DNA of 64,000 nt from Polytrichum commune (Eukaryota; Streptophyta; Polytrichopsida; Polytrichales; Polytrichaceae): the NCBI GenBank assembly GCA_950295325.1, contig OX485805.1, positions 57,872,758 through 57,936,757 on the forward strand, given 5' to 3'. Positions 634 through 20,903 of the stretch are shown one piece after another. A program made the translations under genes and the position numbers. Within the stretch, counting starts at the first letter, position 1. The number at the start of each line of letters is the position of its first letter. The notes under the pieces are model-generated. The model saw nothing but the letters and a program-made list of their open reading frames with translations. It was not told the origin of the DNA and did not search any database.

Positions 634-661
634 AACACTATATTCGTTAAATTGAGACTTT
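634..661 (+). repeat. E1 left terminal inverted repeat
   Basis: 28-bp terminus starting AACACTATATTCGTTAA and ending TTGAGACTTT after a one-base step. It is the exact inverse of 20,872-20,899 and is preceded by the duplicated GTAT at 630-633. Confidence 0.92.
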
Positions 662-780
662 TTGGGCATTTTGAGACATTCACAGAAATAAGAACAAGGA
701 TAAATGGAACACATATTGGAGAAAGTTGTAAGATGCGAACACTTTGAAGCGGGTGTTTAGAACAAGAACCCCATTAATAA

Positions 781-1038
781 CTCATATTTGGGATTGTTTA
801 GAGCGGGCAATCCAAACCTTAGGCCAAGTTGAAGGGGAAATCTTAAAACATTCATATTATCGCACAAAAACTTGTATGAATATGGTTTAGGTAGGGCAAT
901 CCAAACCATAGATCATATTGAAGGGGAAATATGTGAACCAATATAATATAACATACAAAATATTCCAAACTCATATTTGTGATGGTTTAGGTAGGGCAAT
1001 CCAAACCTTAGACCATATGGAAGGGGAAATCATGTGAC
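781..1038 (+). repeat. E1 left subterminal repeats (3 units)
   Basis: Three related units of about 60 bp (781-842, 875-930, 969-1,038) share GGTTTAGGTAGGGCAATCC followed by AAACC and then GAAGGGGAAAT. Clustered subterminal repeats beside a terminal inverted repeat are usual transposase-binding regions in CACTA-like elements. No matching cluster is visible near the right end. The unit core resembles the sequence after the solo terminus at 12,511. Confidence 0.65.
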
Positions 1039-1094
1039 ACTTATATTATTGCAAAAAAAAACATACAAAGTCTGGCATGTAAAATACATAGCAT

Positions 1095-1517
1095 GCTAAC
1101 ACCACATATCCATTGGATAGTGCGACCCAAAATGTTCTTGCCTATGGCCCAAAACCCTACGCCTACTATGGCCTATCTAGCCTCGGAGACTACCTCTTTT
1201 TTTTTTGCTTTTTTTTCTTTTGCCTCTTTTTATTTTGCCTCTTTTTCTTTTGCTGTGGCTTCTTTTGCTCGCATTGCTTCAACATTCCTGAAAATCTCCG
1301 CCCCGCGACTATAGCCATTCTTGGGGTGACCGCCATCAATAACACATTTTGGATTCCGTCGGCCGCCCGAATTATACGACGAAGAATTCAAATACGATGA
1401 AGTGGACTGTCTTGCATTTCTGGTCATGGAGTAGAAACGCTCCAACTCGACGGACGCACTAGCCCGCATAGGTCTACGGGTGGGAGCAACCTGCAACGCG
1501 TCAATGCAAGACCACAT
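1095..1517 (-). CDS. Candidate Lys/Glu/Ala-rich exon(s) in E1 (unrecognised)
   Basis: Minus-strand open stretch with a Ser/Arg-rich start and a charged Lys-Glu-Ala tail (1,200-1,290) that would form a helix or coiled coil. An in-frame TAA at about 1,230 splits the charged tract, and the same frame continues after it. A possible splice acceptor (GCAG) lies near 1,498. It could be the 3' exon of the neighbouring phosphatase-like gene or a decayed gene of its own. No function can be assigned. Confidence 0.3.
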
Positions 1518-1591
1518 GTGTTAGTTTAGGGAGGAAGACCCAAACGTGTCACACGTTCATTTTTTTAGAGCAAAATGATTGTAATGCGCGG

Positions 1592-1976
1592 TTAACCATG
1601 TGTGGGGGGGTTCACCTTGTCACCGGGGGCGTTCCCGTCGGAGTTGGCGAGGAGGGGCAAGGCGTCCCGCAAAGGAATAGCAAGGGTTCCACTCTTCGTT
1701 GGCCGAGCGTCCATCCGCAGTCGCCGTTGAGGTGTAATACTGCCGCCGGGCCGAGAGGGGGACGTCCGGACGCATTTGCGATTTATGCCCTTGAGCGGCG
1801 ACGGGGACGAAGATCGCCGGAAGATTTGCTTGGGTGGGGGGCTATCGACGATGCCGGCGTCAAGAGGCTCCTTGGAGTAGTCGATGGTGGACGCGGCATC
1901 GTAGACGGTCTCGTAGAAGAAGCTCCCCAAGTTTGATTCGCTGATGATCTCAATCGAGGGCTCCAAACGCTGGCGC
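1592..1976 (-). CDS. Candidate downstream exon in E1 (unrecognised, Ser/Pro/Arg-rich)
   Basis: Open on the minus strand after a pyrimidine-rich tract and a good acceptor (TTTTTTGCGCCAG, about 1,977-1,989) to a TGA/TAA-bounded end near 1,595. The predicted peptide begins RLEPSIEIISESNLGSFF and becomes rich in Ser, Pro and Arg. It lies immediately 3' of the FCP1-like ORF and is in the same frame as it, but a TGA at 2,081 intervenes, so it is either a later exon of that gene or an independent ORF. No family recognised. Confidence 0.35.
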
Positions 1977-2080
1977 AAAAAAGGAAACAAAACAAAACCC
2001 AAGGGGAGGGGGGAGCATGTGAAAATCGATATACAATTGAGGCATAATATATCACACACAATGGCACACCATGTACTATC

Positions 2081-2896
2081 TCAAATGAGTTTATTATATT
2101 TCGCGTGAGCGTACAACTCTCTGTACATATAGTCCTTCGGATCCATGTATCTTTCGCCTATCGGATTACAACTAAGGAACCGGGGCACGGGTAGTCCGCT
2201 CCCCACGAGCGTTTGAATGTACTTAAGTAGGTCTAACAAAAAGCGGTCTCGGACCTTCTCGACCGTCCACGTGGGGCAAACTATGAAGTTCGAGGTCGGG
2301 TTCAAAATGTTTTTAGAAGCGCTGTCGTCCACCATCAACGTGTTGTCACGGGTGGGGCGAACGTCGTAGGGACAGCCGACCATGGTCGGACGCTGGTCCC
2401 ATACGACTGGCTTCAAGACCTTAAGAAATTGGTTTACGGCGGGGTTGTTGGGCTTCTTCACAACCCTGCCCTCGGGGGTGTATAATGTTTTACAAGAATC
2501 CTGTCCTAGGACCAAGCACGGGGGTTGGAGTCCCTTGAAGATGAACTCCACGACGGCCTGGGTATTCTCGGACTTCATGGAGCTCCAAATGATCACCCAC
2601 CATTTGGATAGGGCGACCTGTAGGAAGCGCCGAAACCACGGGCGGAGGTACACTAGCTTGCTTTTGATGTACGCGGGGGGTCCATTGTAGTTGGCATCCT
2701 CGGGCTTGCAGAAAGGTACCGTGGGGACCCTCGGACAATGCACGCACTGGACAAGGACCCCGTTGAGGTCTAGCACCAGGAACCGGGTCTTGGGAGGCGA
2801 AGGTGGCGAGGGCAAAATCGGGGGGACCAGCACGCTGTCCTCCACACTCCTCGGGGAGGATCGGTGGGGAGCCGCGACGCTATGCTCCGAACCCTG
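2081..2896 (-). CDS. FCP1/SCP-like HAD phosphatase-fold protein (E1 cargo)
   Basis: The frame opens after an acceptor (GTCGCCGCAG, about 2,897) and ends with a TGA at 2,081; the first in-frame ATG is at 2,845 only if GTG is allowed, so this is best read as an exon. The protein has a Pro-rich start, then LVLDLNGVLV, the HAD motif I position (canonical DxDGT), then IIWSSMKSENTQ (motif II type), and later VDDSASKN (motif III type). This order matches the NLI-interacting/FCP1 phosphatase family acting on RNA polymerase II C-terminal domain or related phosphoproteins. The second catalytic Asp of DxDGT is Asn here, so activity may be weak or lost. The length (about 270 residues) fits one such domain. 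It may be a captured host gene. Confidence 0.7.
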   Translation of the reverse strand, partial: QGSEHSVAAPHRSSPRSVEDSVLVPPILPSPPSPPKTRFLVLDLNGVLVQCVHCPRVPTVPFCKPEDANYNGPPAYIKSKLVYLRPWFRRFLQVALSKWWVIIWSSMKSENTQAVVEFIFKGLQPPCLVLGQDSCKTLYTPEGRVVKKPNNPAVNQFLKVLKPVVWDQRPTMVGCPYDVRPTRDNTLMVDDSASKNILNPTSNFIVCPTWTVEKVRDRFLLDLLKYIQTLVGSGLPVPRFLSCNPIGERYMDPKDYMYRELYAHAKYNKLI

Positions 2897-3338
2897 CGGC
2901 GACGAGCGAGAGAAGGCGGCGAGGACTATGTTATGCTATGTCCATCTCAAGCAGAACGGAAATTTTGTACAAACACAAGAAGAATTGGACCATTGGTGGC
3001 AACAAAAACATACAAGGGGAACAACATACATTGGGACACGGATGCAAACATATGGGCGCCAAAAATAATAATTTTATTTTTACAAATCTCTATGTACAAT
3101 TTGATGGGGGGGGGAGGACCGCGGTGAACGAGGGCATTCACACTATCCTAATTCTACATCCACAAAATTGGTTGCGCGCCGCCAAGGTCGAGTGTAGTCG
3201 AATGCAGATGAGACGAAGGGGATCGCGGGGGGCACGTTGGGGGAGGGGGAGCAAGTGTAGAGCATGGGGGGGCAGGGGGTGTGCATTTCCTCCTAGCAAG
3301 GGGGACACGACCACGCCAACAAGACAGTGACCCAGGAA

Positions 3339-3360
3339 GTTTGGGTCGGTCGACCCAAAC
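3339..3360. repeat. 22-bp palindrome (GT core) in a likely intron
   Basis: Arms GTTTGGGTCG and CGACCCAAAC around a GT core. It lies just 3' of the probable donor (GAG then GTAATA, about 3,370-3,376) of the last recognised exon of the ParB-like/methyltransferase gene. Confidence 0.9.
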
Positions 3361-3375
3361 TGGGAGGGCTCAGTG

Positions 3376-6148
3376 TATTACCTCGCCCTGGTCATGTCTC
3401 GACGATGTAGAAGCCTCCACCGTCCCCGCTGCCCCGCCTCTCTCGCCACCGCCTTCTCCGACGACGTCAGGAACCTTCTCCTGCAAACGATCGGCAACAA
3501 GCCCTTGTCCTAAACCAATCTCCGCATGTGCATCATGCATGGGTTCATCGATTTGGTTAGGAGTAGAGGTATCACCAGGCCCTTGCAGGCCTTCAACATC
3601 TAGCATGGCCGTGTCTAGTTGACACCCATGTTGGTCAAGGGAGGACTGCGCTGCAACGGGGTTTGGGTCGCCCGACCCAAACTGTCCTGCATCTGGAGAG
3701 GGCCCTTCGGACACTACAGTGGATGGTAGGTTTGGGTCGGTCGACCCAAACATCCTGGGGTCGTCCGATTGGTGAGGGGGCGCCATGACTATGGGGGGCC
3801 GAAGTGGTGGAGGGCCCAAAGGGGAGGAAGCTCCAGAGACGCGCCAGATGTTGGGGTCATCCACTTGCTGGACCGGTGTCAAGGAAAATATGCACTATCC
3901 GGTAAGCGCCGGGCTTCTATTTTATGGTAGTGTTTAGAAAAAAATATAGTAGTTTTCCTTCTCCTATACTCTTGATGTAAATTTCTCTCAATGTGGTTCC
4001 TCTAAGCTTCAGAATAGTATAACTCAAAACCAAATCATCTTCTTCAAGTGAAATTTGGTACACTTATTAATTATTTTATCAAAAACATTCTAACCAAATT
4101 TGAGCACAATCAGAGTTCATATGCAAAAGTTATGCATTATATTCTAACTCTAACTACCTAGCATGAATGCTGTGATAAACACCCGGTCTCTAAAACCTTA
4201 ATAACTTCCTACTCTTATGTCCAAAAAATCTCAGATTTTAACACCAGATAGATGTGTAAGTTCAAAAGGTGGTATCAAATTTTGGTATCCATATCTATAA
4301 CCCTCTAAAAGATACATATTTTCAAACCTTGCTAGTTTAGTTGGCTTTGTTCCTAGACAGCCTTCCCTTCAACTCTTAATAACTTTTTCATGCCAATGAC
4401 TGAAGCTCTCAAATTTTTACCACAACTTCCATAACTCATAATAAATGATCCCTCAAATTTTCATATCCATTGAACACTCTGATCATCCATAATTGACAAA
4501 TCTCTCACTATAAAGTTCTGCTCAAGTTCATAACCAATAAAACACTACAAGTAGTGCACCTAGTACAATCTAGTCACTCTAAATGCCACACCTCCACACC
4601 CTCTTGTGTAGATGAGTCTCCTAAGCACTTATCCCTCTCAAGATGCTCTAAGCTCCCTCAATCCAACACAAGTAACAATTCCAAAATACTAATGGTCCCC
4701 CTAAACACTCTTCTAATACCCCTTAAATAGTCTTCCACCTTGCCCCCTTTCGGCCAATAGGAAACCATCGAGGTAAGGTCCTCTAGAACCCCTCCAAGTG
4801 GCTTGCTAATGGATGACCTTAGGGGTTAAAGGTTTCTAGAATCCTTATCCTACTAGAAATAGGAAAGATATGGGGTTAAAGGTTTCTAGAACCTTAATCC
4901 CGCTAGAAATAGGGCGTTTGGGGCTAAAGGCTAATCCGGCAAGCCAATAGGAATTTAAAGTAAAAACCTTCTAGAACTCCTAGGTTGTTAGCTATTGGCC
5001 CGCCGGTAAATCCAATCCTACCTACCACATCCATCTACCAATTCATCCGGTCTTCAACTTAAGACCGGTTTTTACCTAACTAAGATCAACTTAAAAATAA
5101 CGAAAACAAATAAAATATCTAAATTCTAATTAATAGACCGCCCACATCACGACACCGGCGCGTACGGAACTTGGTAGGGCCGCATCAAGTGCTGGAAGCT
5201 GAAAGACGATTGCGGCAAAGGCTGCTAATGGATGCTCTGCGCAGGGAAGCTGGGGGGCAAGTGCGGGAAGGAGCTGGAGGGAGCCACCACCAAACCTTGC
5301 GCCCACATTCCTTGTATCACTTGTGATATCAAGTCGGCGTGGGACGGAGGTTGGGCCATTGCCCTTTGACGCTCCTGCTCCAACAGGAGAGCCCTCAGCT
5401 CTGCGACCTCGTTCCGCATTGAGGGCTCTTCCGCAATAGCCTTCTGCAGGCAGACTCGCTGCTCTTCGTCCCTCCTCATCTTCTCGTTCGCCTCCTCCAC
5501 AGTCAGGACCTTGGGCTTCACCCTAACCATGCCAGCGAACGCTGTCGAGGACGGGGAATCTGATCTTAGCCGTTTGGCGAGCTCAATGTCATCGTGGTCC
5601 TCGCTGCTTATGGCAATGGTCTCCTCCACGGAGTAGTCGCCATACAGCTTCTTCCCGTTTAACTTCCTCCTCTCCCTGAACGTGGCGGTGGCGTCCCTGG
5701 AGTACATGTCCCGTGCATCGTCCACCGTCAGGACGGGCACCAGCTTACTCTGCGGGGTTGCCGCCCGCATTGCCTTCTTCCGTTGAGGGGCTTCGGATTC
5801 TTGCGTGAAGCCCGTTGCCCCTTCCTCCACGTCGCCTTCCTTCTCCACCTCCTCGTGCTCCTCTTCTTCCTCCTCCTCCTCGACCTCGCCACCTTCTGTG
5901 CGGGACGGATTGCCCGGATGCAACCCGACCAGAGGTTCGGGTACTTGGGTTGTGGCCCTCATGGCCATTTCTTCCGGGTTGATCCGCCTCGCCCTATCAA
6001 GAGGGTTTTCACCCCCTTGAACAACCTCGTCGACGTAGCTACCCGGGATCCAATCGAGGATGTCCATCTTCTTCGCCAGCGATCTCTGCGTCCTGTAAAA
6101 TGGCAGATCGCCATCCTCTATGTAGGAGTATATACTCAGCCCCGACAT
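3376..6148 (-). CDS. Exon 3: methyltransferase motif II and acidic C-terminal tail
   Basis: Begins ATGTCGGGG after acceptor TTGTGTAG (6,149). The join with exon 2 is in phase and gives SAM-MSGLSIYSYIEDGDLPFYRTQ, which resembles the helix and GIE-type acidic strand following motif I in N4/N6 methyltransferases. A run of nine Glu with Val/Gly spacers follows (about 5,850-5,885), then a Lys/Arg/Glu-rich region likely to be helical. A TAG at 5,225-5,227 is followed by the same open frame (QPLPQSSFSFQHLMRPYQ), and removing the solo LTR with one CCGG joins it in frame to VQQVDDPNIWRVSG (3,876 onward). Two palindromes are translated here as FGSGDPNP and FGSTDPNL. The frame ends near a possible donor at 3,370-3,376. 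Confidence 0.6.
3661..3751. repeat. Two palindromes embedded in coding sequence
   Basis: Copies at 3,661-3,682 (CC core) and 3,730-3,751 (GT core) lie inside the open tail of exon 3 and read as FGSGDPNP and FGSTDPNL without a stop or a frame break. They show that the palindromes can occur within coding sequence. Confidence 0.85.
3877..5154. mobile_element. Solo LTR inserted in exon 3
   Basis: Starts TGTCAAGG, ends ATCACGACA (TG...CA with TGTC/GACA inverted tips), 1,278 bp, flanked by CCGG at 3,873-3,876 and 5,155-5,158. Removing it with one CCGG restores the exon reading frame across the site (YAP joined to VQQV). Internally it is AT-rich with no long ORF. A segment with GGGGTTAAAGGTTTCTAGAA occurs twice (about 4,822-4,915). 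No second LTR, gag or pol is present, so this is a recombined solo LTR. Confidence 0.88.
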
Positions 6149-6304
6149 CTACACAATCCAAGTTATATAGACATTAGAATTAGGCGAGGGACATAAACAA
6201 GACCAAAAACAATATCTAGTTTGGGTCGATCGACCCAAACCAACAAAGAGCCTAGTTTGGGTCGATCGACCCAAACTGCGCACGAGCTATAGAAAATCAC
6301 TTAC
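6149..6304 (-). other. Intron with two perfect palindromes
   Basis: GTAAGT donor at 6,304 and TTGTGTAG acceptor at 6,149 in phase 0. Perfect 22-bp palindromes with AT cores lie at 6,219-6,240 and 6,255-6,276, 36 bp apart. Each therefore contains GATC at its centre. Confidence 0.85.
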
Positions 6305-8650
6305 CATGGCAGAATAGATAGGTTTCGAGCCTCCGAAGACGTTGAAGATGTAGTCCCCTCTCCTCGTCAGCGTCCTCATCATTCTCACGTAAAATTCCAT
6401 ATGCAGCTCATCTGCGGGATAGTCGGGGTTGTCTATCGCGACGTCATGACGGGGTCGTGCCGTCATGACGTGTCGTGTCGGGTCGGACCCCTCCGTCATG
6501 ACACAATAGGCTCCTCGTAGGGTCAAACTAGGGTCAACCTAATAGGGTGGGTAAAATACTTACCTTCTTGCCAAGGTGGCGTCCTATGTGGCAAAAAATG
6601 CCGACGTGGATGTGCATATTTCCCTTGGCATGTAAACCATTTTGCCATTGTGTTTACCATTTTGTTAAAATCAAAGTAATAAAATATTACTAAGGAGGGT
6701 GTAGGTCGGACGGGGGGAACGGGTGGGGAGCGCGGGCGGACGTGTGGGAACGCGGGGGAACATGGGGTCGGATGGGGGGGGGGGGGATGGGTCAGACGGG
6801 GGGGGGGGGGGGGGATGGGTCGGACAGGGGGGAGGACGGGAAGGTAAGTGGAAACGGGGGGGGGGGGGGGGGCGGACGGGGGGGAACGCGGGGAGCGTGT
6901 GGGAACGTGTGGGAACGTGGGGAGCGGGGGGAGCGGGGGGAGCGGGGGATGGGAGCGGGTTTAGGAGGTTTGGATAGGACGGGATGGATGAGAACGGGAT
7001 TAGGGGAACGGGGGAGGGGGGAGGGGAACGGGGGAGGGGAACGGGAGGGAGGACGGGGGGTCGGACGGGGGGGAGGGTCGGACGGGAAAAGGGAGGACGG
7101 GGGGGTCGGACGGGAGGGAACGTAGGGAACGGGTTAGGGAACATGTTAATGGGCTAAGGGAGCGGGGTTAGGGTACGGGGAACGGGGGCGGACGGGCGCT
7201 AGTAATTTTATTCCCCACTTTATCTTTACTTTGCTGACATGTCATCACACGTGGACATCGTAACTCCTACGTGTCCGCAATGGGGTAATGTAAATACACA
7301 AAAAATTCGGTAAAATTCAAGTCCGGCAGGATAAAGACATCATCCATCATAATGTCGTGACGGATACGTGTCGTGACGGCACGACATTATGTCGGGATTA
7401 CCCTCCGTCACGACACAATAGACAACCCTGGGGATAGTTCGCGTATTTAGCCTCGTCGTAGAGGCACTTGTTGGCACCCAACCCTTCTGGAACTTGGAAG
7501 AGTTTGTCCATCCGGGATATAGGGTGGTTCGGCACCTTCAGCAACTCCGCTTTGTACACGAAGTACAAACACAAGACGTTGACAAACTTGGTCTTCTTGT
7601 CCCTCAACGTCGTGTAAGCCCCCTCCGCCGGTGCGGTGATGTAGTGAGACTTGGAGACTGCATACTCCGGCTGCAGTTTCCGGACAAGCTCGTACACCTG
7701 CTCCGCCCTCCTATCCTCAACTATCCAAAGCCAGATATCTACCTCCCTGAACTTAGGGCTTGCATAATCGACGAACTTAGACAGGAAGGGGTCGTAGAAG
7801 AGGGTGCTCATCGTGCCCTCAAATGAGCTTCCAGGAATATTCCTGAAATCAATCATCCCAAAAAGAAAGTGGTCCCTTGCTTTCGTCCTTATCGCCATTC
7901 TGGCGTCTTGACATGGTCAACCCTGAATTTTCAAAGGGTCGACGGTGACAAGGTTGAAGTACGCTTCCCCTTCAAACTGGACAATCTTCTTCTCCTTGAC
8001 GAAGTTCGAGAACGCACGCGTTGTGTGATCCGGAAGCGCCCGGTTCTTCCCCCCCTTCACCATCTTGGCCCGCAAGAAGTCGTCCCCCGCTTCCCTTATT
8101 AGAGCCGCCATGGAGGCACTGGTGAACTTATATTCAGCTTTGAATGATCTCCAGTTAGCCTCATGAACCTCGCCGTCCATGACAATATTCCTCTCTGGCA
8201 CCAATTTATGCAGCTTCTGCACGATAGTCGTCTTCTTTTTCCTGTTGTCCGTCCATTCCTTCATGGTGTAGCATGAAGGAACGAAGGATTTGGGTTTTTG
8301 GAAGACAATCTTCGGGTGCACCCAGCACCTCTTCGCCGTGGGTGCCACGTGCAGGATGTGTGATGCAGCCTTCTCCACCTCCGTCTCTGACAGCCCTTGA
8401 AGAGTTCTAAAAAACTCTCTCACAAGAGGCTTCATCTGCTTGAAGCGCGAGGTTTGGCTGAAGAAAATGCCAGTGTCGGGATCGATCAAATCCCCCGTCT
8501 CGTGCTTTTCAAACACGGTTTTCCACTTCCTCCAAACTGAGTCCGATGCTGTAATCAAGTAAATCTCCCCCCTGAGGTCGTTGTATTTCTTCTGCTTGTG
8601 GCTCAAATTATCAATGGAGGAGAATTTGTTGATCATTTGGTATTTGAAAT
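6305..8650 (-). CDS. Exon 2: methyltransferase-like domain, interrupted
   Basis: Opens after the acceptor GTCCAAG (8,651) and ends at a canonical donor, ATG then GTAAGT, at 6,305. An in-frame TGA (7,917-7,919) interrupts an otherwise continuous frame and is one C-to-T step from CGA. After about 260 codons of unassigned sequence, the C-terminal part alternates strand-like segments (VDIWLWIVED; FVNVLCLYFVYKAE) as in beta-class DNA methyltransferases, then has ELHMEFYVRMMRTLTRRGD (motif X type) and YIFNVFGGSKPIYSAM (motif I type, near 6,320-6,345). No clean DPPY/SPPW catalytic motif is visible; DPFL near 7,790 is the nearest. The domain is therefore either divergent or inactive. A 1-kb element sits at 6,425-7,430. 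Confidence 0.62.
6425..7430. mobile_element. MULE-like non-autonomous element with G-rich core
   Basis: Inverted ends share GGGTTGTCTATYGYG, flanked by GGGATAGTC (6,416-6,424) and GGGATAGTT (7,431-7,439), a 9-bp duplication with one later change. Removing the element plus one copy restores the host frame (KYANYP followed by ADELHM). A 9-bp duplication is typical of Mutator-like elements. Each end can also fold back on itself (TGTCATGACGG-type inverted pairs). The middle (6,700-7,150) is a G-rich minisatellite. No transposase ORF is present, so ORFs seen in the G-rich part are compositional. Confidence 0.82.
6700..7150 (+). repeat. G-rich minisatellite
   Basis: Irregular repeats built from GGGGAACGGG, GGAGCGGG and GGGTCGGACGG, with uninterrupted G runs of 10 to 18 at 6,775-6,875. 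The plus strand could form G-quadruplexes. It sits inside the MULE-like element. Confidence 0.85.
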
Positions 8651-8741
8651 CTTGGACGTGAACAAAACATAACATTTGAATGCGTGTTAGATATGTACAT
8701 GTGATTTTCAAACCATATCATGACCAACATCTGCAACAATT

Positions 8742-8903
8742 GTTTGGGTCGATCGACCCAAACTAAAAAACACAAGACTGTAACAATTGTTTGGGTCGAT
8801 CGACCCAAACTAAAAAACACAAGACTGCAACAATTATTTGGGTCGAGCGACCCAAACTAGATAAACAAGGCTGCACCAGGTGTTTGGGTCGGTCGACCCA
8901 AAC
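8742..8903. repeat. Four palindromes in the first supported intron (47-bp period)
   Basis: Copies at 8,742-8,763 (AT core), 8,789-8,810 (AT core), 8,836-8,857 (AG core) and 8,882-8,903 (GT core). The first three share the spacer ACTAAAAAACACAAGACTG and repeat every 47 bp. The last lies only a few bases inside the donor of exon 1. Confidence 0.9.
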
Positions 8904-8909
8904 AATACT

Positions 8910-10238
8910 CACCTTCCACTTGGGATTCTTGTCCTTCGCATTCTCCCTCTCCTTGGGAGGCCTACCATAGAACTCCCACACCTCCCGCGAGGCCATGATA
9001 TTCCTTATCCAGGACGCTTGGTAGGCCCTCTTCTTGTTTCCCATATTGAAGTACCGGGAGATGTCGCTGAGCTTGGTCTCGTCGTCAGACCACACCACCA
9101 ATGCCTTCCAAACCTTCAGCTTCTCCTTCTGATTGTTCGGATCATCCCACTCATTCATGAGTTGGATTTTCTTGGATGCCTCCACGCTGTGCTGGCCGTC
9201 TATGAGCCAAAAATCGCCCTTCTGAATTGTTGGCCACATTTCAGGTGTAGGCATTTTCTTGAGACCCTGTGGCATCACTACAATCGTTTGCCTGTCGTCT
9301 TTAAACTGCTCGCAAACGATCTGCGCGATTATCCAGTCAACGTAGGCGTCCTCCTTTGCCCGGACACACTTCTCCGGTGGCGCTAGATGGCACTGGCTGA
9401 TGTTCACGTCGAACTTGAAATCCCTGCCCATGAAAAAACAGTGGAAGCATTTCGTCGTGAAATTGTTCACGATTTTTTGCAGCTCCCCTGCATCCACCTC
9501 TTCGCCGGGCTTTGGCATGCGCAACTCCGGTGATACTGGCTCGTCAGTCATCACAGAGGACTCTCTCGCCCGCTTGGATGGAGTTGTTTGACGGCTCCCA
9601 GAAGATGTAGGCGTCTCGCTATCCGTCGGTGTTTGTGAGGGAGTGGTCCTCCGCGAGTCAGCCGGTACTGGTCGCGGCTTCCTCACCGATTGAGGTCTTG
9701 ACGACCCTGCACCTTCCTCTGTTGTAGCTTTCCACCTCACGGGTTGCTGACATTTGGTTTTGCTCTGCAGGGCTTTGTTGAGCACGCTAATTGCATGCTT
9801 TAGTTTCGTGAATCGGCTCGACACCTTTGTGTTCGATGTACTGTTATCGATGAATATGGACTCCGGTTTGATGACGTCTGGTTCTACATATGTTTCTTTT
9901 GCATAGATAGCGTCAAAGGGTTCAGAGAACTGGTGCATAAACATATGCGCGTTCTAGACAGCGTTGTTCTCGAGGATGACATCCACGTAGTCTCCAAGAG
10001 ACTGAACCGATGCCACCTCCCACCCCGTAAGAGTAGCCCATGTGTGCTTCTCCACCGTCCCAACCTTGACAACAAAAATCATTTTGTATTGCGAACCCTT
10101 AACCGCTTGTATAGGCCATGCGAGGACAAGCCCGTCCTTAGGAACGTAGGAGTCATCTTCCGGTGTTTCGTGCTCTTGCCATATCATATCTGGCGCAAGC
10201 ATGAACCACCTTTCGCCTGGTCGTTTCTTTGGGGCCAT
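8910..10238 (-). CDS. Exon 1: ParB/DGQHR-like domain
   Basis: Starts ATGGCCCCAAAG right after the acceptor TTTCCTTGCAG (10,239). The first 94 codons end at an in-frame TAG (9,954-9,956), after which the same frame stays open for more than 340 codons, so the stop is probably a CAG-to-TAG change. The segment before the domain is Ser/Thr/Arg-rich (about 9,540-9,760). The domain has PPEKCVRAKEDAYVDWIIAQ, then TIVVMPQG, then FWLIDGQHSVEASKKI, then ALVVWSDDETKLSDISRYFN. This matches ParB/Srx-like and DndB/DGQHR proteins, except that the usual Arg after DGQH is Ser. The donor is GTGAGT at 8,912 or GTATTG at 8,908; only the latter keeps phase with exon 2. Confidence 0.7.
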
Positions 10239-10264
10239 CTGCAAGGAAAGAAGCCCCAATGTTA

Positions 10265-10955
10265 GTTTCGATCGTTCGACCCAAACTTCTTCAAACTGAA
10301 TAGAAGTCACGTGATGTAATTGAAATGTAATAGATTGCCGCATGTATTTTGCTGGTTTGTGTATTGTTATATGTGAACATCATTTAATGGTGATATTGTA
10401 TTTTTATTTTTGGGTGGACTTGCATTTTATATTGTATTTAACATCATGGATTGTTTGATGGGTTTATAATTAGAAGACTGTGTTTGGGTCGAGCGACCCA
10501 AACATCAGCCCTTGTTTGCGTCCAACGACCCAGGAATGAGAGGATCCTAGTTTGTATTGTTATATGTGAACATCATTTGTATGCTGACATCGGATTATTT
10601 AGTTTTGGGTGGATTTGTATTTTATATTGTATCTAACATCATGGATTTCTTTATGAGTTTAGGGTTTAGAAGACTGTGTTTGGGTCGAGCGACCCAAACA
10701 TCTGCCTTTGTTTGGGTTTAGGGTTTCAAACGTCTGCCTTTGTTTGGGTCGAGCGACCCAAACATCAGCCTTTGTTTGGGTGGAGGGTTTCAAACGTCTG
10801 CCTTTGTTTGGGTCGAGCGACCCAAACATCAGCCTTTGTTTGGGTCGAGCGACCCAAACATCAGCCTTTGTTTGGGTCGAGTGACCCAAACATCAGCCTT
10901 TGTTTGGGTCGATCGACCCAAACAACAACCTTTGTTTGGGTCGTCTCCCCAAAGT
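10265..10955. repeat. Palindrome cluster upstream of the ParB-like exon (32-bp period)
   Basis: A degenerate copy lies at 10,265-10,286, good copies at 10,482, 10,678, 10,742, 10,806, 10,838, 10,870 and 10,902, plus decayed copies near 10,514 and 10,934. From 10,806 the copies repeat every 32 bp with spacer ATCAGCCTTT. Most cores are AG. The region is 5' of the gene on the minus strand, so a regulatory or binding role is possible but unproven. There is no credible gene here; the ORFs are read through the repeats. Confidence 0.88.
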
Positions 10956-11097: not shown

Positions 11098-11400
11098 ACC
11101 CTCAATAACAACTCTGGAATCTCTGAAACAACTATTCAATCTCAAACAACTCTGCAATCCCTCAAACAACTCTTCAATCTCTCAAACAACTCTTCAATCT
11201 CACAAACAAATACTGGATCTCTAAAAAGACTTTTGAATCTCGCAAACGAATTCTTAATCTCTCAAACGACTTCTAAATGTCTCAAGGAACTCCTGAATCT
11301 ATCACAAAACTACAGAATCGCTCAAACGACTTTGAAATCTCTTAAACTACACAAGAACTCCTGATACTCACAAGCACAATCTCAATCTCCTACACGATGT
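11098..11400 (+). repeat. Degenerate ~20-bp tandem repeat
   Basis: About 14 diverged units of the type CTCAAACAACTCTTCAATCT. No coding potential. Confidence 0.75.
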
Positions 11401-11459
11401 TCTCCTAACTTTTTGCAGCACTCTTCAACACTCTTCTTCAACACTCTTGAAAACTCCTC

Positions 11460-11860: not shown

Positions 11861-11897
11861 CCTAACTCTAAACCCTTAGCGGGTATTACTTATTTCA

Positions 11898-13390
11898 ATG
11901 AACTAAGGTGCTACATGAAATATACTAAGGTGCGGTGCCAATGCATTCTTGCAACAAAACTTTATGCCAAAGCTTATACTTAACCCCTACTTACATGACA
12001 TCATACACTAAACTTTCCAAACAAGTTGAAGTCGTTGGTTTCTCTTTTGTTTGAGCAGGTTAGAAAAATAATACAATTGCGTGACATATAACGATGTAAT
12101 CATTGACATTTAGACTTTCCCAATGATGCCAACAACTATGCCTTTCACCATGTTTGAAGGCCAAGGATTAACCAACTGTTTTTTAAAGCGTTGATTATAA
12201 GTTATGAAAGGTTGCTAAAATTCAAATGAGTTTAAGGGTGAAAGTCCTCACCATCTTCTGATTCAACCTCTACTCTTCCTGCAAGATATAGCCTAAAGAT
12301 ATGTACTTAGGCCAACTAATTTCCCAATTTGAAGAAGGATGAATGGCTAAAATCCTCTCTTTTAAAAAATTTGTAGGTAAAATTTCCTACATGTTTTTTA
12401 TCACATACTAGGTTGATATCCTATGTTCTTAAATTGTGCATAGGCTCTTTGTCCTACACTCTCAAAATTTTATAGGCTAAGTCACTTATTTTTTAGGCTG
12501 CATTTGTATTAATCACTATATTCGTTAATTTGGGATGGTTTAGGTAGGACGACCCAAACATTAGACTATGTTGTTGTGGTTCTGCTTTAAAATTGGTTCT
12601 AAGCCCTTGAAATAATTGGATGACTTTATGGTTATATTCTCAAACCTAAGTTTGATCCAAGACTTCATGTATAACTCTACTATGATGTATAAAATGCCCC
12701 CCACCCCCACCTTGCACCCCACCAAAGCTTTTGTACAAGTTTCTCAAGTTTTCAATCCCTTGTGCTTGTGATCATTTCTTAATCCACTAGACTATTTTCT
12801 CTAATTAGTGTGGCATAACATTCGGAGTTACACATTTCTGTAACATTTAATAGAAAGTATTTTTTCATCCAAATAACATAAGTAGGTAGTATGCACACGA
12901 AAAATTATGATATGACTTAGTTCGTAAAAAACGATAATGTCGGTAAAAAATTATAGCAAGACATAATTATGAAGTGCACAAGTGCACCTCTCGTTCATCC
13001 AACATAAAGCCCTTAAATAGTATGTAACTTAAATAGTATGTAACTTGAAGGCTATTCAACATAAAGCCCTTAAATAGTATGTAACTTGAAGTATCCAACA
13101 TAAAGCCCTTAAATAGTATGTACCTTGAACTCTGGAGTACACTAAGGTGCTACATAAAATGTGTTATTCTACTAAACTAACCATTTATATAGCCAATGCA
13201 TTCTTACAACAAAACTTTGTGCTAAACGAATACTTAACCCTTACTTACATGACACCATACCCTAAATTTTCCAAACACATTGAGGGCATTGGTTTCTCTT
13301 TTGTTCGAGCATGTTAGGAAAACCATACAATTGCGTGATATTCAACGATATAATCATTGACATCTAGACTTTACCAATGATGCCAACAAC
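11898..13390 (+). repeat. Direct repeat pair in E1 non-coding region
   Basis: A segment of about 245 bp at 11,898-12,139 is repeated at 13,138-13,390 with moderate divergence. Shared landmarks are CTAAGGTGCTACAT, GGTTTCTCTTTTGTT and CCAATGATGCCAACAACT. A short tandem of AACATAAAGCCCTTAAATAG occurs three times at 13,007-13,130. No gene is seen between the copies. Confidence 0.75.
12511..12580 (+). repeat. Solo E1-type terminus inside E1
   Basis: TCACTATATTCGTTAATTTGGGATGGTT followed by a TAGGTAGGACGACCCAAAC stretch matches the E1 end plus the subterminal repeat core. No matching right end lies between here and 20,899, so it is a relic of a related element or an internal duplication of the left end. 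Confidence 0.6.
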
Positions 13391-13589
13391 TCACACAATA
13401 TTGAATGAATAAAAAAGTTTACCCACACCCCCTAACATGTGGAACAATTTAGAATACTTGAGTGTGGAGCCTATTAAATGAATACATTCCCCAACTGCAT
13501 TTTGTAAGGGTTTTGAAATGCATGAGCCTTATTTGAAAATGCTAACATGCTCAAGTTTTAAGTACATCCCTGATATTGTGACTTTGATG

Positions 13590-14400: not shown

Positions 14401-15331
14401 ATTTTGGATGTTTTGCTCACACACATTAGTAAACTTGAAGTGAACTTGATGATGGATTCAAGTAACATTAAACGATTGAACTAAAAAGGGACATTGGTAG
14501 TTAGTATCCCCTTAACAACGTCCTCAACGTGTTCGTCATTGCCACACTTGCATGCGAGATAATAGAGCAATGTTCTAGGGTTTAGGGTTTAGTGGAGACA
14601 AATAAATAATTCTATTCATCATGACAATGGCCTCAAGCCTTGGAAACTCTCTCATAATTGCAGCCTCCAAATGGCCCAAACCCCACCTAAATAGGTTTAC
14701 ACTTGAAAGCATTGAATGGAGTTGTGTTTGGGTCTACATATTGGTTAAAATATACCGTGATGATACTTGAAAAAATTAATGTGGCCGCCACCCTTCCTCC
14801 CAATGGCGTATGTCATATCCACACAAAAAAAAAAAAAAAATTAAATAACATAGACTAAGTCATATGACGGCTGGGGTATCAAAGGGGCATTCATAGATGC
14901 GCATTTTTCTACTATAAACAGAAAACGGGAAATTATGTCAGGAGGTTTGAAATAACCTCTGCAAGAGAAGAAGGCGGGGAAGGCATCCAATGACTAAGTC
15001 TAGGAAGCGGAGGTGGATAGTATAAAGGGGCGCACCCCCCAGAAGTCGGTCATTTTTTTCTCTTCTCCCGCTGCCAAATTCGTAGAGAGAACTCTTAGTA
15101 GGAGTTGTACTTCAAGGTTCGTGCATGCTGCCGTTCATGAGCACTTATCCACAGCATGCAAGTTCATGAGCACCTACCCACAGCATGCAAGCCCACCGTG
15201 AAGTTTGCAATGAGCTCAAATTCACCACACCACGCAATATCCGCCGCATTATACGCCGGATTTTGTGGTGTACTTGGGCGAACCTTCACCTTTCCACTAG
15301 TGTTGGCGGGTTTTGAGTCTGACCCTATGAG
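14401..15331. other. Non-coding stretch of E1
   Basis: AT-rich, with an A-run at 14,825-14,841 and another short GGGTTTAGGG at 14,577. No convincing gene or repeat was seen. Confidence 0.5.
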
Positions 15332-16610
15332 GTTTGGGTCGACCGACCCAAACCTGTCCACTAGTGTGTAAGGGTTTATGTCTGACCCTTAACAGGTTTG
15401 GGTCGGTCGACCCAAACCCCAACCCCAGTGTGTTAGGGTTTTTTTTTTACCCTTATGAGGTTTGGGTCGACCGACCCAAACCCCTACCTGGTGTGGGTGG
15501 ATGTACCCTTGTGAGGTTTGGGTCGGTCGACCCAAACCCCAACCCCAGTGTGTTAGGGTTTTTTTTTGACCCTTATGAGGTTTGGGTCGACCGACCCAAA
15601 CCCCTACCTGGTGTGGGTGGATGTACCCTTAACAGGTTTGGGTCGGTCGACCCAAACCCCACCCCCAGTGTGTTAGAGTTTTTTTCTGACCCTTATGAGG
15701 TTTGGGTCGACCAACCCAAACCCCTACCTGGTGTGGGTGGATGTACCCTTGTGAGGTTTGGGTCGGTCGACCCAAACCCCAACCCCAGTGTGTTAGGGTT
15801 TTTTTTTGACCCTTATGAGGTTTGGGTCGACCGACCCAAACCCCTACCTGGTGTGGGTGGATGTACCCTTAACAGGTTTGGGTCGGTCGACCCAAACCCC
15901 ACCCCCAGTGTGTTAGAGTTTTTTTCTGACCCTTATGAGGTTTGGGTCGACCAACCCAAACCCCTACCTGGTGTGGGTGGATGTACCCTTGTGAGGTTTG
16001 GGTCGGTCGACCCAAACCCCTACCCCAGTGTGTTCAATTTTTTTTTGACCCTTATTAGGTTTGGGTCGACCGACCCAAACCCCTACCTGGTGTGGGTGGA
16101 TGTACCCTTGTGAGGTTTGGGTCGGTCGACCCAAACCCCTACCCCAGTGTGTTCAATTTTTTTTTGACCCTTATCAGGTTTGGGTCGACCGACCCAAACC
16201 CCTACCTGGTGTGGGTGGATGTACCCTTGTGAGGTTTGGGTCGGTCGACCCAAACCCCTACTGCAGTGTGTTCAATTTTTTTGACCCTTATCAGGTTTGG
16301 GTTGACCGACCCAAACCCCTACCTGGTGTGGGTGGATGTACCCTTATGAGGTTTGGGTCGACCGACCCAAACCCCTACCTGGTGTGGGTGGATGTTCCCT
16401 TGTGAGGTTTGGGTCGGTCGACCCAAACCCCTACCCCAGTGTGTTCAATTTTTTTTGACCCTTATGAGGTTTGGGTCGACTGACCCAAACCCCTACCTGG
16501 TGTGGGTGGATGTACCCTTGTGAGGTTTGGGTCGGTCGACCCAAACCCCTACCCTAGAGTATTAGGGTTTCAGTATGACCCTTATGAGGTTTGGGCCGGT
16601 CGACCCAAAC
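15332..16610. repeat. 120-bp tandem array with 22 alternating palindromes
   Basis: About ten 120-bp units, each with two 22-bp palindromes. Cores alternate AC and GT along most of the array. These are reverse complements, so neighbouring palindromes point in opposite senses. Two spacers alternate: CCTACCTGGTGTGGGTGGAT between AC and GT copies, and CCCCAGTGTGTT plus a T-run between GT and AC copies. Later units are shorter because the T-run varies. Because 120 is a multiple of 3, a 259-codon frame is open through the array; it is probably incidental. The array ends about 0.9 kb upstream of the transposase exon. Confidence 0.95.
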
Positions 16611-16810
16611 CCCCACCAAAATATTTTCTGGAACTTTTTTTGGACTTGCGTACAGTGTTGGGAGTTCACATTGTAGTTGTGTTGGAAATGTCTTCATCCT
16701 CGGTGTCCCCATTGATCATGGTGTCTTGCATTTTCCGATATTTGATTCTTTTGGACCTTTACATTCTTTCTATGTGTGTTGAGGTTTCATGTGCATGTGT
16801 GTAGGCGCAA

Positions 16811-17024
16811 TGGAGGGAGTTGGTGGAAGAGGGGATTCCTTCTCTGACAACATGGGCAACACCCAATCTACGTCTGGGGATGAGCTAGACATTGTCGGGG
16901 AGGATAGTTTTGATGACGGTGCAAATGAAGGTGACTTGGGGAGTCCTTCGCCATCTGCCCTTTCTTGCCCTATTGTGGAATGTGCGGGGCTTTCACGAGC
17001 ACCCAGGGAGTGCACTATTCATTA
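16811..17024 (+). CDS. Candidate 5' exon of the E1 transposase gene
   Basis: After TGTGTGTAG, an ATG (16,811) opens 71 codons rich in Gly, Ser, Asp and Glu (GDELDIVGEDSFDDGANEG), with a stop at 17,023. It sits on the same strand just upstream of the transposase exon, separated by AT-rich sequence that could be an intron. A donor that keeps phase could not be identified, so the connection is tentative. Confidence 0.35.
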
Positions 17025-17484
17025 AAACCAAGCATCACATGCGTGCATGCCCCTTATTAAAATACCCTTGTATACATTTTATTTTTGCTAAAATCAAGCA
17101 ATTTACTTACAAATTTCATTGCTTCAAAATACATTTCCATACGTACACAAGGGTCCAAAAAAAAATACATAAATTGTATATAACATGTGTACAAATGTTT
17201 GGAAATGCAAAAATATGGCCCTATTATATGTATAATATCAAATCATGAATTTTTAGTTATAAAGTCGTTACTTAATGGATGAAAAAACACATGATTCTTG
17301 GTCCAAGTCTGACTTGAACGCATAAACGCGTAAATGCGTACTTTACATATATATTTTTATAGCCTCATGTATATCTACTTCTTGCTTAATAGCAATATGT
17401 CTCTTGTACGTACATTTTGTACATGCTTGTTTTAAATAATACCCCTTTTGTGCACCCACGTGTATAAATACAGTACTTGAACAG

Positions 17485-20382
17485 TGCACCCCCTGGGCAC
17501 GAGCATCATGGGTGAATTTGGATGTGGTACTTGTTAATGACAATGGAGTTGCTGTGGCGGAGGGTATTTGTCGTAACACACATCCACAAGATTGTATTGA
17601 TGAAAACCCCCTTGGCACCGACGACGTTGGAGTTGTTATATTGGAATCACTCGTACATTCCGAAGTGAATCCAACTCATAGGTTCTCATTGCGAAGGTGG
17701 CCGTTGAGGAATGTGACAATTGAGGGGGTTAGCTTGCATGACCATGAGCGACGACACATCCAAATCCAACACGAGCTCCAAGCACACATTAGGCCACGCA
17801 AAGGCCTACGGAAGTACGATACATTGGCACGTCCTACTCCGTCTGCAAATGAATGTAAACGTCAAAGGTTGCTCTGTGAGGAGTCTATTAGAGAAGTTGC
17901 CACAAAGGATTGTTGTGTACATCGTTGTTGCCAATTGTTCCCAAGGGATAAATTGAAGGCCATCCGCGAGGAAATGTGGCTTGGAGATTTCCGTCTAAGA
18001 TCCACCAAAAAGCTTGATGTCCATAGGGCGATACATGTGAACGGAGCGGGTCGCAAGGTCATCACCCTTGAGAGCATAGACGTGTGTTGTACGGCATGGT
18101 ACACCATTCACGGTGTGTCGAAAGCGGAATTTTATAGACAAGCCGCGTATGCCAAGGAAGGACGCCGGTCTCGTCACCATGGGAATATGGGCTTAAAGAA
18201 ACCAAGGGAAGCAACGAGACAAGCAACAGCCACTCTGGCAACCATCATTGTCCCCCTTGCCGATGCAATACCGCACAAAACACGCACACTCGCAACCGGT
18301 GAAAAGGTTGTGGAGAGGATTCTTCCTACAGGCACGAAATGGAAAGACATATTGTTGGACGTAAACGCAGTTGGCGAGAAGGATGGGTTGGATCCTATTT
18401 CGTTGTCGAAACTGAGTGCAATCAAAAAATCAAACTTTAGCGAATACATCACAAAAAGACGAGGCGACAAATTTGCCCGTTGTTCCAAATGCGAGAAGTT
18501 GAAACGCCTTCGAGATGCACACACGATGGGGACAGAGTCCTATGCAGCACATCAAATGAACTATTTCAAGCATGTGAACATGCAAGAGGCACACCATAAT
18601 GATTACTACACAAATAGAGCTTTGTCCATCTCTAGGCCTTTGGAGGTCCTTACAATCATCCATGACAAAATAGACCATGCCAAAACAGCCTCACCATGTT
18701 TTGCAAATCGAATAAAAGCCACGGACGGCCTTTTTAAGCTTCCTGTATCGGTTACAGGTGATTTTGATAACAATTGCATTGCATTACCTAAACACAAATT
18801 TGTGCTGTTAGGGTTGTACTTGGGGCCATAGATGTACACCATGTGAATTTTTTGGTGTTATAGTTGAATATTAAACCATTGGGTTGGCTTTGCAGGAATG
18901 ATTGCACATGGGCATGGTGATGTCAAGTATGCTCATTATGCTCTTGATTTGTATCCGGCGGATTCAAACCACACGATAGGGTCATTTGCAAAGTTTTTAC
19001 GTGATTTGGAGAAACCGCCGTCCTATTCATCAAGATTGTTATTTGAAAACTCGGGATCAACACCTCTATATGAAGCGGTCTTGGATGGAAGAGACGTATG
19101 CGTGCACTCCTTGCCGGAGCCACCAAGTGAAGATGTGATTGCCAAGAATTTGCCCCCAACTCTGCGTGTCCAATTGGACAATTGTGCGAAGGACAATAAA
19201 AGTAGATATGTTTTTGCATATTGGTCGTTGCTGGTTGCGAAAGGCATTTTCAAGGAGGTTTTTGTGTCCTTTCTATTGGTAGGCCACACGCACGATGATA
19301 TCGATGCATCTTTTGGGCGGTGGAGCATGAAGTTGCGCGAGGAGGATTTTCCAACAATCCCATTGTTGATGAAGTCGTACATGGATTTGGAAAACATTTC
19401 CGTCATCCCCCATATGATCGAGGAGGTTCCAAACTTCAAGGCATTTATAGAACCGTATATTCGAAACGGAGCTCACCGATTGATCGGGCATACGAAGGCA
19501 CAACAATTTCGGTTCTACGTGCGTGACGATGGTGTCCCCGCCATGCAATACAAGTTGTTGTGCACATCACAAGACTGGAGCCCGCCGGAGGGTCTCCTTG
19601 TATGGCGTGTTGATGGGGAAGGAAGGACGATATTGCCTGACGGAGAGCCTAAGCCTTGCAAACCAATACCCATGAAGAATTTGGAGGACATTTGTAAAGG
19701 CATATCAGGCTTCATACAATATTGGGAGAGTTTGAGGGTAGCGGATGTTGGTTGATCGTGTTGGCTTCGTTACGGAAGTTGGATACAATATTGGACACGT
19801 GTTCGTGGCGCTTTGGCAAACCTTCATCAAGATACACCCCTTACTTTAAGGCATGGGTTTTGGCCACAAACACGTGTCAATGTACAAGCTTCGGAGGCTA
19901 GTCTTTTGGGAAATGGAGAGGTTCGAGAGGAGTTTGATGTGGACGACCATTACGTGGGGCCTGCTAGTAGTCGTCCGCCACCATCTTTCCGCATTGCAGT
20001 GGATTGTCATGAAGGTTATATGCTCATTTTGCGTCCTGGAGATGAGACATATGCAAAGCCAGTGTGGGTGGCAAGAGCTTTGTTCAAAACAAATTTTGTA
20101 ACTTCCAGCCCTCATTTTCGACAAATACAAGTAGAGTACTACCGACCGACAGCACGGAATGAAGATGTTGTTCGGCATTATACAGGCTGGGATACAAACC
20201 CTAACTTTCGGTGGAAGGTGGATTCTGAGCACGGTCCATTTTGGGTAGATACAGATTCCATATTCATAGCATGGAAACCACGGAAAAATCATAGTGGATC
20301 AGTGTCCATCCCTCAAAAGTACATAACTTTTGCAAAAGACAACCTTGCTCAGATCGCAGAAGAAGCAACCCACGTTGAATGA
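17485..20382 (+). CDS. DUF7869-like DDE transposase of E1 (two exons)
   Basis: Exon A 17,485-18,757 follows acceptor TTGAACAG; exon B 18,896-20,382 follows TTTGCAG. The GT-AG intron 18,758-18,895 joins SVTG to MIAHGHGDVKYAHY in phase. The N-terminal half has Cys/His pairs (KDCCVHRCCQLFPRDKL; CCTAWYTIHGVSKAEFYR) and HHGNMGLKKPR. Exon B has LDNCAKDNKSRYV (DNC at 19,177) and VGHTHDDIDASFGR (19,279-19,320), the two acidic signatures of the DUF7869 group related to DDE transposases. A TGA at 19,753-19,755 splits exon B; the same frame continues 190 codons and ends with a Trp/Tyr-rich region of unknown fold. The stop fits CGA to TGA. Position within the inverted repeats and strand suggest it mobilised E1; this copy is probably inactive. 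Confidence 0.75.
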
Positions 20383-20871
20383 GAAGTTGGTAGGATTGTG
20401 TTAGCATGATTATAGTGTAAACAGTAATTCGACGAATATATATTACTCATATGTGTGCTCCTCAAACTTGGGGCAAAGTTTGGGTAGAACTTGCGAATGC
20501 TATATTATTTGGGGTTGGATGAATATCCATTTACTATATTTCAATACAGTTGTGAAGTTTATTTTTTTATTAAATTTGGGACTAAATTTTCTATTGAAGA
20601 AAAATGCATTTATTGCATGTACTTTGTATGTTGCAATGTCTATATTTTATTGACCATGCTAATAATAGAAATCATTTTATATGTTTCTTGGGTGAAACTA
20701 GTTTGGAGTGTTTTTATTGATGAAGTTGGTGTTGAGTGCTCTACCATATGTGCTTATGTCCACACATAATAGATTTGGGATATTAGAACATATAATATAT
20801 TTGAGATTGTTCACAATATAGTTTCGGAACACGGAATGTTGTTTGATCCATATATTAATTTGAGACTAGAG
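20383..20871. other. AT-rich 3' region of E1
   Basis: Follows the transposase stop. It contains AATAAT-type A/T motifs that could serve polyadenylation, but no clear gene or repeat. At 20,861-20,882 TTGAGACT and AGTCTCAA form a hairpin that overlaps the right terminus. Confidence 0.5.
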
Positions 20872-20899
20872 AAAGTCTCAATTTAACGAATATAGTGTT
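20872..20899 (-). repeat. E1 right terminal inverted repeat
   Basis: Exact inverse of 634-661, ending ATATAGTGTT and followed by the duplicated GTAT (20,900-20,903). Confidence 0.92.
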
Positions 20900-20903
20900 G
20901 TAT

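Follow-up and report, generated by a model that had tools for sequence, protein, structure and literature searches.

The stretch of Polytrichum commune DNA analysed here (64,000 bp, assembly GCA_950295325.1, contig OX485805.1, positions 57,872,758 to 57,936,757; hereafter the window) contains a large DNA transposon, E1, that spans window positions 634-20899 (20,266 bp). Its terminal inverted repeats are identical over 28 bp (634-661 and 20872-20899) and lie between two copies of GTAT. When the flanks of E1 are joined with a single GTAT, 11 other loci match across 240 of 240 bases at 90-96% identity. As the unoccupied site is found at these 11 paralogous loci, the insertion of E1 and its 4-bp target duplication are certain, and the exact ends and duplication noticed in a preliminary description of this DNA, made from the letters alone, are borne out. 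The same description spoke of a 20-kb element, which is true of the present span but inflated: E1 carries insertions at about 3877-5153, 6424-7431 and 17000-17498, none of which occurs in the copies A-F described below, and these make it longer than those copies (15.7-18.1 kb). E1 is a degraded copy of a family of large cut-and-paste DNA transposons, about 16-17 kb without later insertions. It contains a transposase gene, an accessory gene that we refer to as the cargo, an FCP1-like open reading frame (ORF) and many copies of one palindrome, arranged as follows.

630-633, no strand: left target site duplication, GTAT, single at 11 paralogous unoccupied sites
634-661, plus strand: left terminal inverted repeat, 28 bp
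2081-2935, minus strand: FCP1/NIF-like ORF, PF03031 E 2.8e-13, in 6/6 full-size copies
3339-3751, no strand: three palindromes in cargo exon 3 or 3' of the cargo gene
3370-6148, minus strand: cargo exon 3, beginning MSGLSIYSYIEDGD, split by the insertion at about 3877-5153
3877-5153, no strand: later insertion, not in copies A-F
6219-6276, no strand: two palindromes in cargo intron 2
6305-8651, minus strand: cargo exon 2, methyltransferase-like by motif only; nonsense codon and insertion at about 6424-7431 in E1
8742-8903, no strand: four palindromes in cargo intron 1
8913-10238, minus strand: cargo exon 1, 442 codons, ParB-like DGQHS motif; one TAG in E1
10265-10923, no strand: eight palindromes 5' of the cargo gene, some of them spaced at 32 bp
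15332-16610, no strand: central array upstream of the transposase gene, with 22 palindromes in tandem units
16810-18831, plus strand: 5' part of the transposase (MEGVGGRGD...), insertion at about 17000-17498 in E1
18868-20382, plus strand: 3' part of the transposase with the DUF7869 domain, PF25273 E 1.9e-42; nonsense codon near 19754 in E1
20872-20899, minus strand: right terminal inverted repeat, 28 bp
20900-20903, no strand: right target site duplication, GTAT

The cargo gene lies on the strand opposite to the transposase in E1 and in copies A-F, and is built of three exons with GT-AG borders, which in copy F are open over 442, 444 and 496 codons (1,382 residues). The DGQHS motif is in exon 1, and the stretch earlier called methyltransferase-like corresponds to exon 2 and the start of exon 3. 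In E1 the gene is broken by one nonsense codon each in exons 1 and 2 and by insertions in exons 2 and 3; the transposase is broken by one nonsense codon and one insertion. The label of the FCP1-like ORF is upheld by its PF03031 match, and the gene may have additional exons at 1230-2080. FCP1-type phosphatases carry the motif DxDx(T/V); here it reads D-x-N (DLNGVL in E1, DVNGIL in the remote X family), and since the second Asp is replaced by Asn in both, phosphatase activity appears doubtful. The transposase assignment gains a match to DUF7869, a domain that we take to be a DDE transposase. The name ‘ParB-like’ for the cargo is likely to be apt in view of the DGQH motif, its position, homology to the X family and a published parallel, and no profile confirms it; ‘methyltransferase-like’ was likewise given by motif, X-family homology and that parallel, and found no profile to confirm it in E1. 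Exons 1 and 2 of E1 returned no useful E-value in Pfam, NCBIfam, PHROGs or PDB, and AlphaFold2 run without an alignment gave unusable models, with a mean predicted local distance difference test score of 35.0 for the ParB-like domain and 34.6 for exon 2. Three viral-contig scans and one phage scan, which did not extend to prokaryote genomes, yielded no relatives.

The E1 palindrome reads GTTTGGGTCG-NN-CGACCCAAAC. As the preliminary description had it, there are about 40 of them: 40 sites within two mismatches (31 exact), all inside E1 and none elsewhere in the window. The commonest 8-NN-8 palindrome is present in 32 copies, against at most one copy in any of 100 dinucleotide shuffles. Across the genome searched (408 Mb, nearly all of it in seven large contigs) there are 9,231 exact sites and none of the reversed control pattern; with reversed-pattern controls at 0, a chance origin of the palindromes is ruled out. 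Among 100 of the 9,231 sites that were listed, 61 belong to copies A and B, 16 to an E1-type copy at 1.18 Mb of contig C1 and 10 to locus P2154, which is taken up below; the remaining 13 lie at C1 0.44-0.48 Mb, mostly adjoining P-type palindromes. In all seven copies (E1 and A-F) the sites occupy introns 1 and 2, exon 3 or the region 3' of it, the region 5' of the cargo and the centre of the element, and exon 1 of the cargo has none in any of the seven. At the 135 non-array sites of these copies the information content is 1.7-2.0 bits per position in the arms (a figure biased upward by the limit of three mismatches at which sites were collected), 0-0.6 in the flanks and 0.5 and 0.2 at the two positions of the spacer; 115 of the 135 are exact. 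The arms of the palindrome are thus invariant amid random flanks.

Some further stretches deserve a mention. Subterminal repeats of the form GGTTTAGGTAGGGCAATCCAAACC at 780-1030 are similar to the internal palindrome and are possible transposase sites. At 12514-12560 an internal end-like stretch, CACTATATTCGTTAA, is followed by a degenerate palindrome, GTTTAGGTAGGACGACCCAAAC, at 12538, a region to which copy B also aligns. An isolated 17-bp E1-type end sequence lies at 26066-26082 in a different neighbourhood. The host sequence that E1 splits resembles by eye a retrotransposon without long terminal repeats (20855-23684 and 1-633), and a minus-strand ORF in it includes GDIETNPGP, a 2A-like motif.

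Does this content travel as a unit? The first 25 bp of the E1 end occur exactly 676 times in the genome (333 forward, 343 reverse; reversed control 0). From 100 listed of these ends, copies were picked by the spacing of the ends: six long pairs, which are copies A-F, and two short ones of 3.6 and 4.8 kb, a selection by size that makes the recurrence in six of six a statement about full-size copies only. A 4-bp duplication flanks all nine elements with exact ends (E1, A-F and the two short copies), in eight different sequences. Each of copies A-F contains the FCP1-like gene, the ParB-like gene, the DUF7869 transposase and 27-40 palindromes (within two mismatches). The look at other copies that the preliminary description had proposed therefore did not overturn it: in 6/6 full-size copies these ends enclose the same cargo and palindromes, and this rules out a host locus that E1 merely encloses. 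The two short copies keep the ends, lack the ParB-like gene and the palindromes, and look like internal deletions; one retains an FCP1-like fragment. For the ParB-like stretch at 8940-9953 (338 codons) the genome holds 1,040 candidates, and the 119 that were scored are 90-100% identical, most of them without an internal stop.

The cargo evolves under purifying selection. Between lineages, synonymous divergence (dS) in exon 2 is 1.3-1.5 with a ratio of nonsynonymous to synonymous divergence (dN/dS, omega) of about 0.06; exon 1 has a dN of about 0.09 and saturated dS; and omega is about 0.1 in exon 3, about 0.2 in the FCP1-like gene and 0.08-0.17 in the transposase. Close pairs of copies with few changes give scattered, sometimes high dN/dS ratios (0 to 1.5). 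A single recent burst as the origin of the copies is ruled out, given that synonymous sites are saturated between lineages. Copy E (L009-L010) is a mosaic whose transposase is near that of copy C (dS 0.11, first transposase part) and whose cargo is near that of copy A (dS 0.39, exon 2); as it combines the transposase of one lineage with the cargo of another, the modules recombine. We consider the family to be probably Sola-1-like. Elements of the Sola-1 superfamily make 4-bp target site duplications. At C1:61421835-61452673 an E1 element (ends at 61425123 and 61442234) is situated between clusters of the palindrome of family W (below), which by coordinates only would be nested cargo-bearing transposons.

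Palindromes were then counted de novo in loci fetched for a match to DUF7869, to a methyltransferase or to a palindrome. Every fetched locus showed one repeated palindrome, or two, compatible with a 2-bp spacer, and none is common to two families except in P2154; dinucleotide shuffles gave at most one copy, as against one in the remainder of the window and one in the left flank of family M. Five further families, X, Y, W, P and M, can be told apart. The X palindrome is CCACGGGTG-NN-CACCCGTGG, with 819 sites genome-wide for CCACGGGTG-NN (reversed control 0). One X locus has 16 sites (within three mismatches) beside a homologous cargo, comprising a ParB-like exon (NGQHT), an exon 2 that is 29% identical to that of E1 (E 8e-21) and an FCP1-like ORF of 33% identity (E 1e-20), in the same order as in E1. 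When the 47 long matches to the X cargo exon out of 94 (386 or more aligned residues, identity of 69% or more) were set against the 52 X-type-looking of 150 listed DUF7869 matches, 39 of the 47 had a DUF7869 match within 30 kb, and all 39 pairs were divergently oriented. Locus X692, a candidate for a cargo-less element with palindromes, was rejected, as there is a cargo match some 15 kb from it, beyond the stretch that had been fetched. The same locus shows a 10.7-kb inverted repeat around the X transposase (L015:3328 to L016:5134; arms identical at 84 of 90 positions) without a clear target duplication.

Family Y has a DUF7869 transposase and the palindrome GGTGAGGCA-NN, with 23 and 28 sites in two copies (within two mismatches; fetched loci only). 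One Y copy has an opposite-strand ORF with DGQHV that aligns to the ParB-like exon of E1 (hhalign probability 74%), and by eye a protein-kinase-NBS-LRR-like gene adjoins one Y copy. The W palindrome, GGTTCCTCKCG-NN, has 87 sites genome-wide (reversed control 0), with 5-11 in each of six loci. In a sub-lineage, W' (L035), CCACTCG-NN replaces CCTCTCG (11 sites, fetched loci only); the ParB-like domains of W and W' are 74-85% identical and the 7-bp cores differ by one base pair. Other loci totalling 222 kb gave two matches to the W and one to the W' palindrome. These loci came from a test stated in advance on seven of 16 distant ParB-like loci (24-28% identity): at least three exact 7-NN-7 palindromes (arms of 7 in the count, where the plan had named 8-NN-8) were present in five of the seven and two each in L030 and L032, and at up to two mismatches all seven had 5-11 sites. 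The seven amount to one family, W, with its sub-lineage, and so are not seven independent cases. Spacers other than 2 bp in the distant loci were nested frames of even palindromes, AT-rich repeats and a 6-bp-spaced repeat in L032 (four copies).

Families P and M bring in a second kind of transposase. Mutator-like elements make 9-11-bp target duplications and have a SWIM-containing transposase. By eye, P and M are flanked by 10-bp duplications (AGTTGGCATG and TCTGTTACCT, respectively), the SWIM match of their transposase falls below the cut-off (E 0.076), and the two look Mutator-like. The P palindrome in fetched loci is CCTGTGCGT-NN, and CTGTGCGT-NN has 523 sites genome-wide; TTTGTGCGC-NN of M has 17 (both reversed controls 0). 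By ORF strands, the accessory gene is opposite to the transposase in Y, P and M. The M ORF matches PF01555 (N6_N4_Mtase, E 1.1e-7) and has DIPY at motif IV; the P ORF matches a PHROG of DNA methyltransferases (E 5e-5), and the motif IV position reads QFPD by eye. Five of the eight M palindrome loci lie within 7 kb of a nuclear PF01555 match, and five of the eight such matches, six of which are below the Pfam cut-off, have a palindrome near. As these loci are copies of one family, they are shared units, not independent events. Protein-kinase-like ORF pieces adjoin the M cargo at L023:2845-3761 (HCDLSFTNIIF and IGDWGSA, by eye), and the one piece scanned in Pfam had no match.

What, then, does the palindrome follow? 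P and M have transposases that are 73-91% identical, ParB-like parts of 37% and methyltransferase parts of 36% identity, and different palindromes, which nonetheless share TGTGCG. In this one case the palindrome follows the cargo and not the transposase. Similar ParB-like domains also accompany similar palindromes, as in W and W' and in the TGTGCG common to P and M. A palindrome that changes with the cargo and not with the transposase, and similar domains paired with similar palindromes, are together the best evidence for the cargo protein as reader of the palindrome.

Based on these observations, we propose that E1 belongs to a cut-and-paste family with a self-recognition module, a reading that we consider on balance probable. 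The cargo protein has about 1,380 residues, with a methyltransferase-like region next to the ParB-like (DGQH) domain, and would attach to the palindrome of its own family, probably as a dimer, at sites placed in the cargo introns, between genes and in the central array. It would act on its own family only, through the family's own palindromes, and the binding would keep these copies free of host silencing, as VANC does for the VANDAL elements of Arabidopsis. The methyltransferase-like part would serve in the E1 lineage as a non-catalytic module. We infer that the palindromes are bound by the cargo protein; that binding works by anti-silencing is suggested more weakly, by analogy. The preliminary description had proposed a DNA-binding and DNA-marking cargo that acts on its own repeats. 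The binding half fits and is strengthened by the palindromes that other families have of their own, whereas the marking half is left without a methyltransferase match in this lineage. The observation is partly confirmed, holding apart from two domain labels, and its interpretation partly supported.

Several findings weigh against this proposal. The ParB identity of the E1-type domain is at the level of motifs: in profile comparisons of E1 with bacterial ParB-methyltransferase ORFs, P and M, the ParB score was slightly above the best of 25 shuffles for two of four targets and below it for the other two. Where box II of ParB has an arginine after GxH (PMC12704722), E1, X, Y and W show Ser, Thr or Val in a by-eye alignment. 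Neither the libraries nor the profile comparisons gave a methyltransferase match for the E1 or X lineages. Eight of the 47 X cargo matches have no DUF7869 match nearby, three of the eight M palindrome loci have no nearby PF01555 match, and the second Y copy (Z870) yielded no ORF with DGQH. The array sites were amplified in tandem and are hence not independent. Finally, P2154, which looks Mutator-like, has both its own CCTGTGCGT palindrome and 18 of the E1 type (within two mismatches; L021:3756-3937 and L022:110-487), despite a cargo that is no more than a remote relation of that of E1. Either it borrows the protein of E1 or its own protein reads two sites; it may carry the address of a second family in order to exploit that family's protein.

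The palindromes could instead be binding sites of the transposase or transposition enhancers to which the ParB-like gene is unrelated. The densest array of E1 lies directly upstream of the transposase gene, and the resemblance, by eye, of the subterminal repeats to the palindrome would suit this explanation. We consider it improbable in the face of P and M, whose closely similar transposases go with different palindromes and cargo, and of P2154, where E1-type palindromes occur with a transposase that looks unrelated. The presence of sites, in 7/7 copies, in both cargo introns as well as within exon 3 or past the 3' end of the cargo also speaks against it, as do the two short copies, which have exact ends and 4-bp duplications and no palindromes, although in these a deletion after insertion is possible. 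Alternatively, the cargo might be an active DNA methyltransferase that writes a self-mark on N6 of adenine (N6A) or N4 of cytosine (N4C) at the palindromes, the idea of the preliminary description and of Dinatale et al. A published parallel in Ectocarpus favours it, as do the recognisable N6_N4_Mtase domain of M at the same position and the PHROG match of P. No methyltransferase model is matched by the E1 and X lineages, and in the profile comparisons none of five targets exceeded the best of 20 shuffles. In E1-type copies the putative motif IV is DPLK, EPLK or EPLR, and the putative motif I is FGGSK (CGGNK in X), positions being assigned by eye; in P motif IV reads QFPD. An active enzyme is thus unlikely, and in E1 the region is probably a dead descendant of one.

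Clusters of palindromic sites and a ParB-like domain are the defining parts of ParB-parS systems, and both have a counterpart here, the domain by its motif. A partition or clustering function, in which a clamp would be loaded onto the palindromes and then spread or link copies together, perhaps aiding the replication or pairing of large elements, might therefore be considered, and P retains DGNHR. We regard it as still less probable: nuclear chromosomes have no need of partition, the box-II arginine is absent by eye from M as well as from E1, X, Y and W, and the Pfam scan of ten E1 ORFs, the only search made for ParA, found none. That the palindromes are selfish tandem repeats or cruciform structures without a protein partner is very improbable, for although many sites lie in tandem arrays whose unit length varies between lineages, the 20 bp of the arms do not vary at non-array sites, where the flanks are random, the 2-bp spacer fits every family found while the sequence is each family's own, and a structural role does not need a fixed sequence.

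What are the implications of a cargo protein that reads its own palindrome? We speculate that the ParB-like module and its palindromic ‘address’ with a 2-bp spacer might form a self-recognition cassette, diversified into several address codes in one genome and used by unrelated kinds of transposase, DUF7869 and Mutator-like, a eukaryotic parS-like system for telling self from non-self; this broader proposal is tentative, its chances falling just short of even. Few cases are known of how a transposon distinguishes its own copies from other genomic DNA, one of them being VANC in Arabidopsis. Related proteins with readable, different palindromes in one genome would make a protein-address code testable by DNA-binding assays and, if the code is real, could provide a set of sequence-specific DNA-binding modules. 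It has been suggested in print that ParB-methyltransferase proteins work on the transposons that encode them; the palindromes would give this idea a concrete target, and the E1 lineage suggests that the act is binding rather than methylation.

How does E1 compare with known systems? Fungal KDZ and other DNA transposons carry TET/JBP dioxygenases, genes that could act on DNA modification; these are a different enzyme class from the E1 cargo, and we know of no palindrome system in such transposons. Phage and bacterial fusions place a ParB-like domain before an N6/N4 methyltransferase domain and are associated with mobile elements, according to a 2025 PNAS survey (PMC12704722). Two ORFs of this kind (ParB_N and N6_N4_Mtase), which served as our comparators, lie on the small contigs C12 and C10 (L028 and L029), probably bacterial contamination, and match PF02195 and PF01555; the E1-type proteins match neither. 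The VANDAL elements offer the closest likeness in anatomy. VANC21, a protein encoded by the transposon, binds a short motif, often arrayed in tandem, in intronic, intergenic and terminal non-coding regions of VANDAL21, and DNA methylation is lost as a result; the motifs of a related VANC are different, and coevolution of protein and target has been proposed (Hosaka et al. 2017, PMC5735166). E1 likewise has a family-specific motif in introns and other non-coding DNA, often in tandem arrays. The VANC21 motif is YAGTATTAY and that of E1 a 20-bp palindrome, VANC is not called ParB-like or methyltransferase-like in the accessible portion of that paper, and E1 is not Mutator-like, although P and M look so. 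Binding and methylation loss have been demonstrated for VANC in Arabidopsis, whereas the likeness of E1 would be one of anatomy only and does not imply membership.

The statement in the preliminary description that this combination had not been described proved wrong. On the 21.5-kb Sola-1 element Sola1-1_Ec32 of Ectocarpus, Dinatale et al. (2025, PMC12477816) describe a gene with ParB-like and N4C/N6A methyltransferase parts opposite the transposase, suggest, with reference to Iyer 2011 and Petroll 2025, that such proteins bind and modify their own transposon, and report similar elements in red and green algae; the combination does not appear in the available portions of PMC12704722, PMC5735166 and PMC9033089. 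Like Sola1-1_Ec32, E1 is a giant DNA transposon with inverted ends and an accessory gene on the strand opposite to the transposase. It differs in its land-plant host, its palindrome arrays, its FCP1-like gene, the association of such cargo with at least two kinds of transposase, and a methyltransferase part that, in E1 and X, no profile recognises. The text of PMC12477816 contains no word beginning with ‘palindrom-’ and no FCP1, and the open-licence papers searched held no earlier description of the palindromes. The ParB-methyltransferase cargo and the idea of self-binding were thus already known from Sola1-1_Ec32, and what the moss elements add is a palindrome code that is specific to each family, is conserved and accompanies two kinds of transposase.

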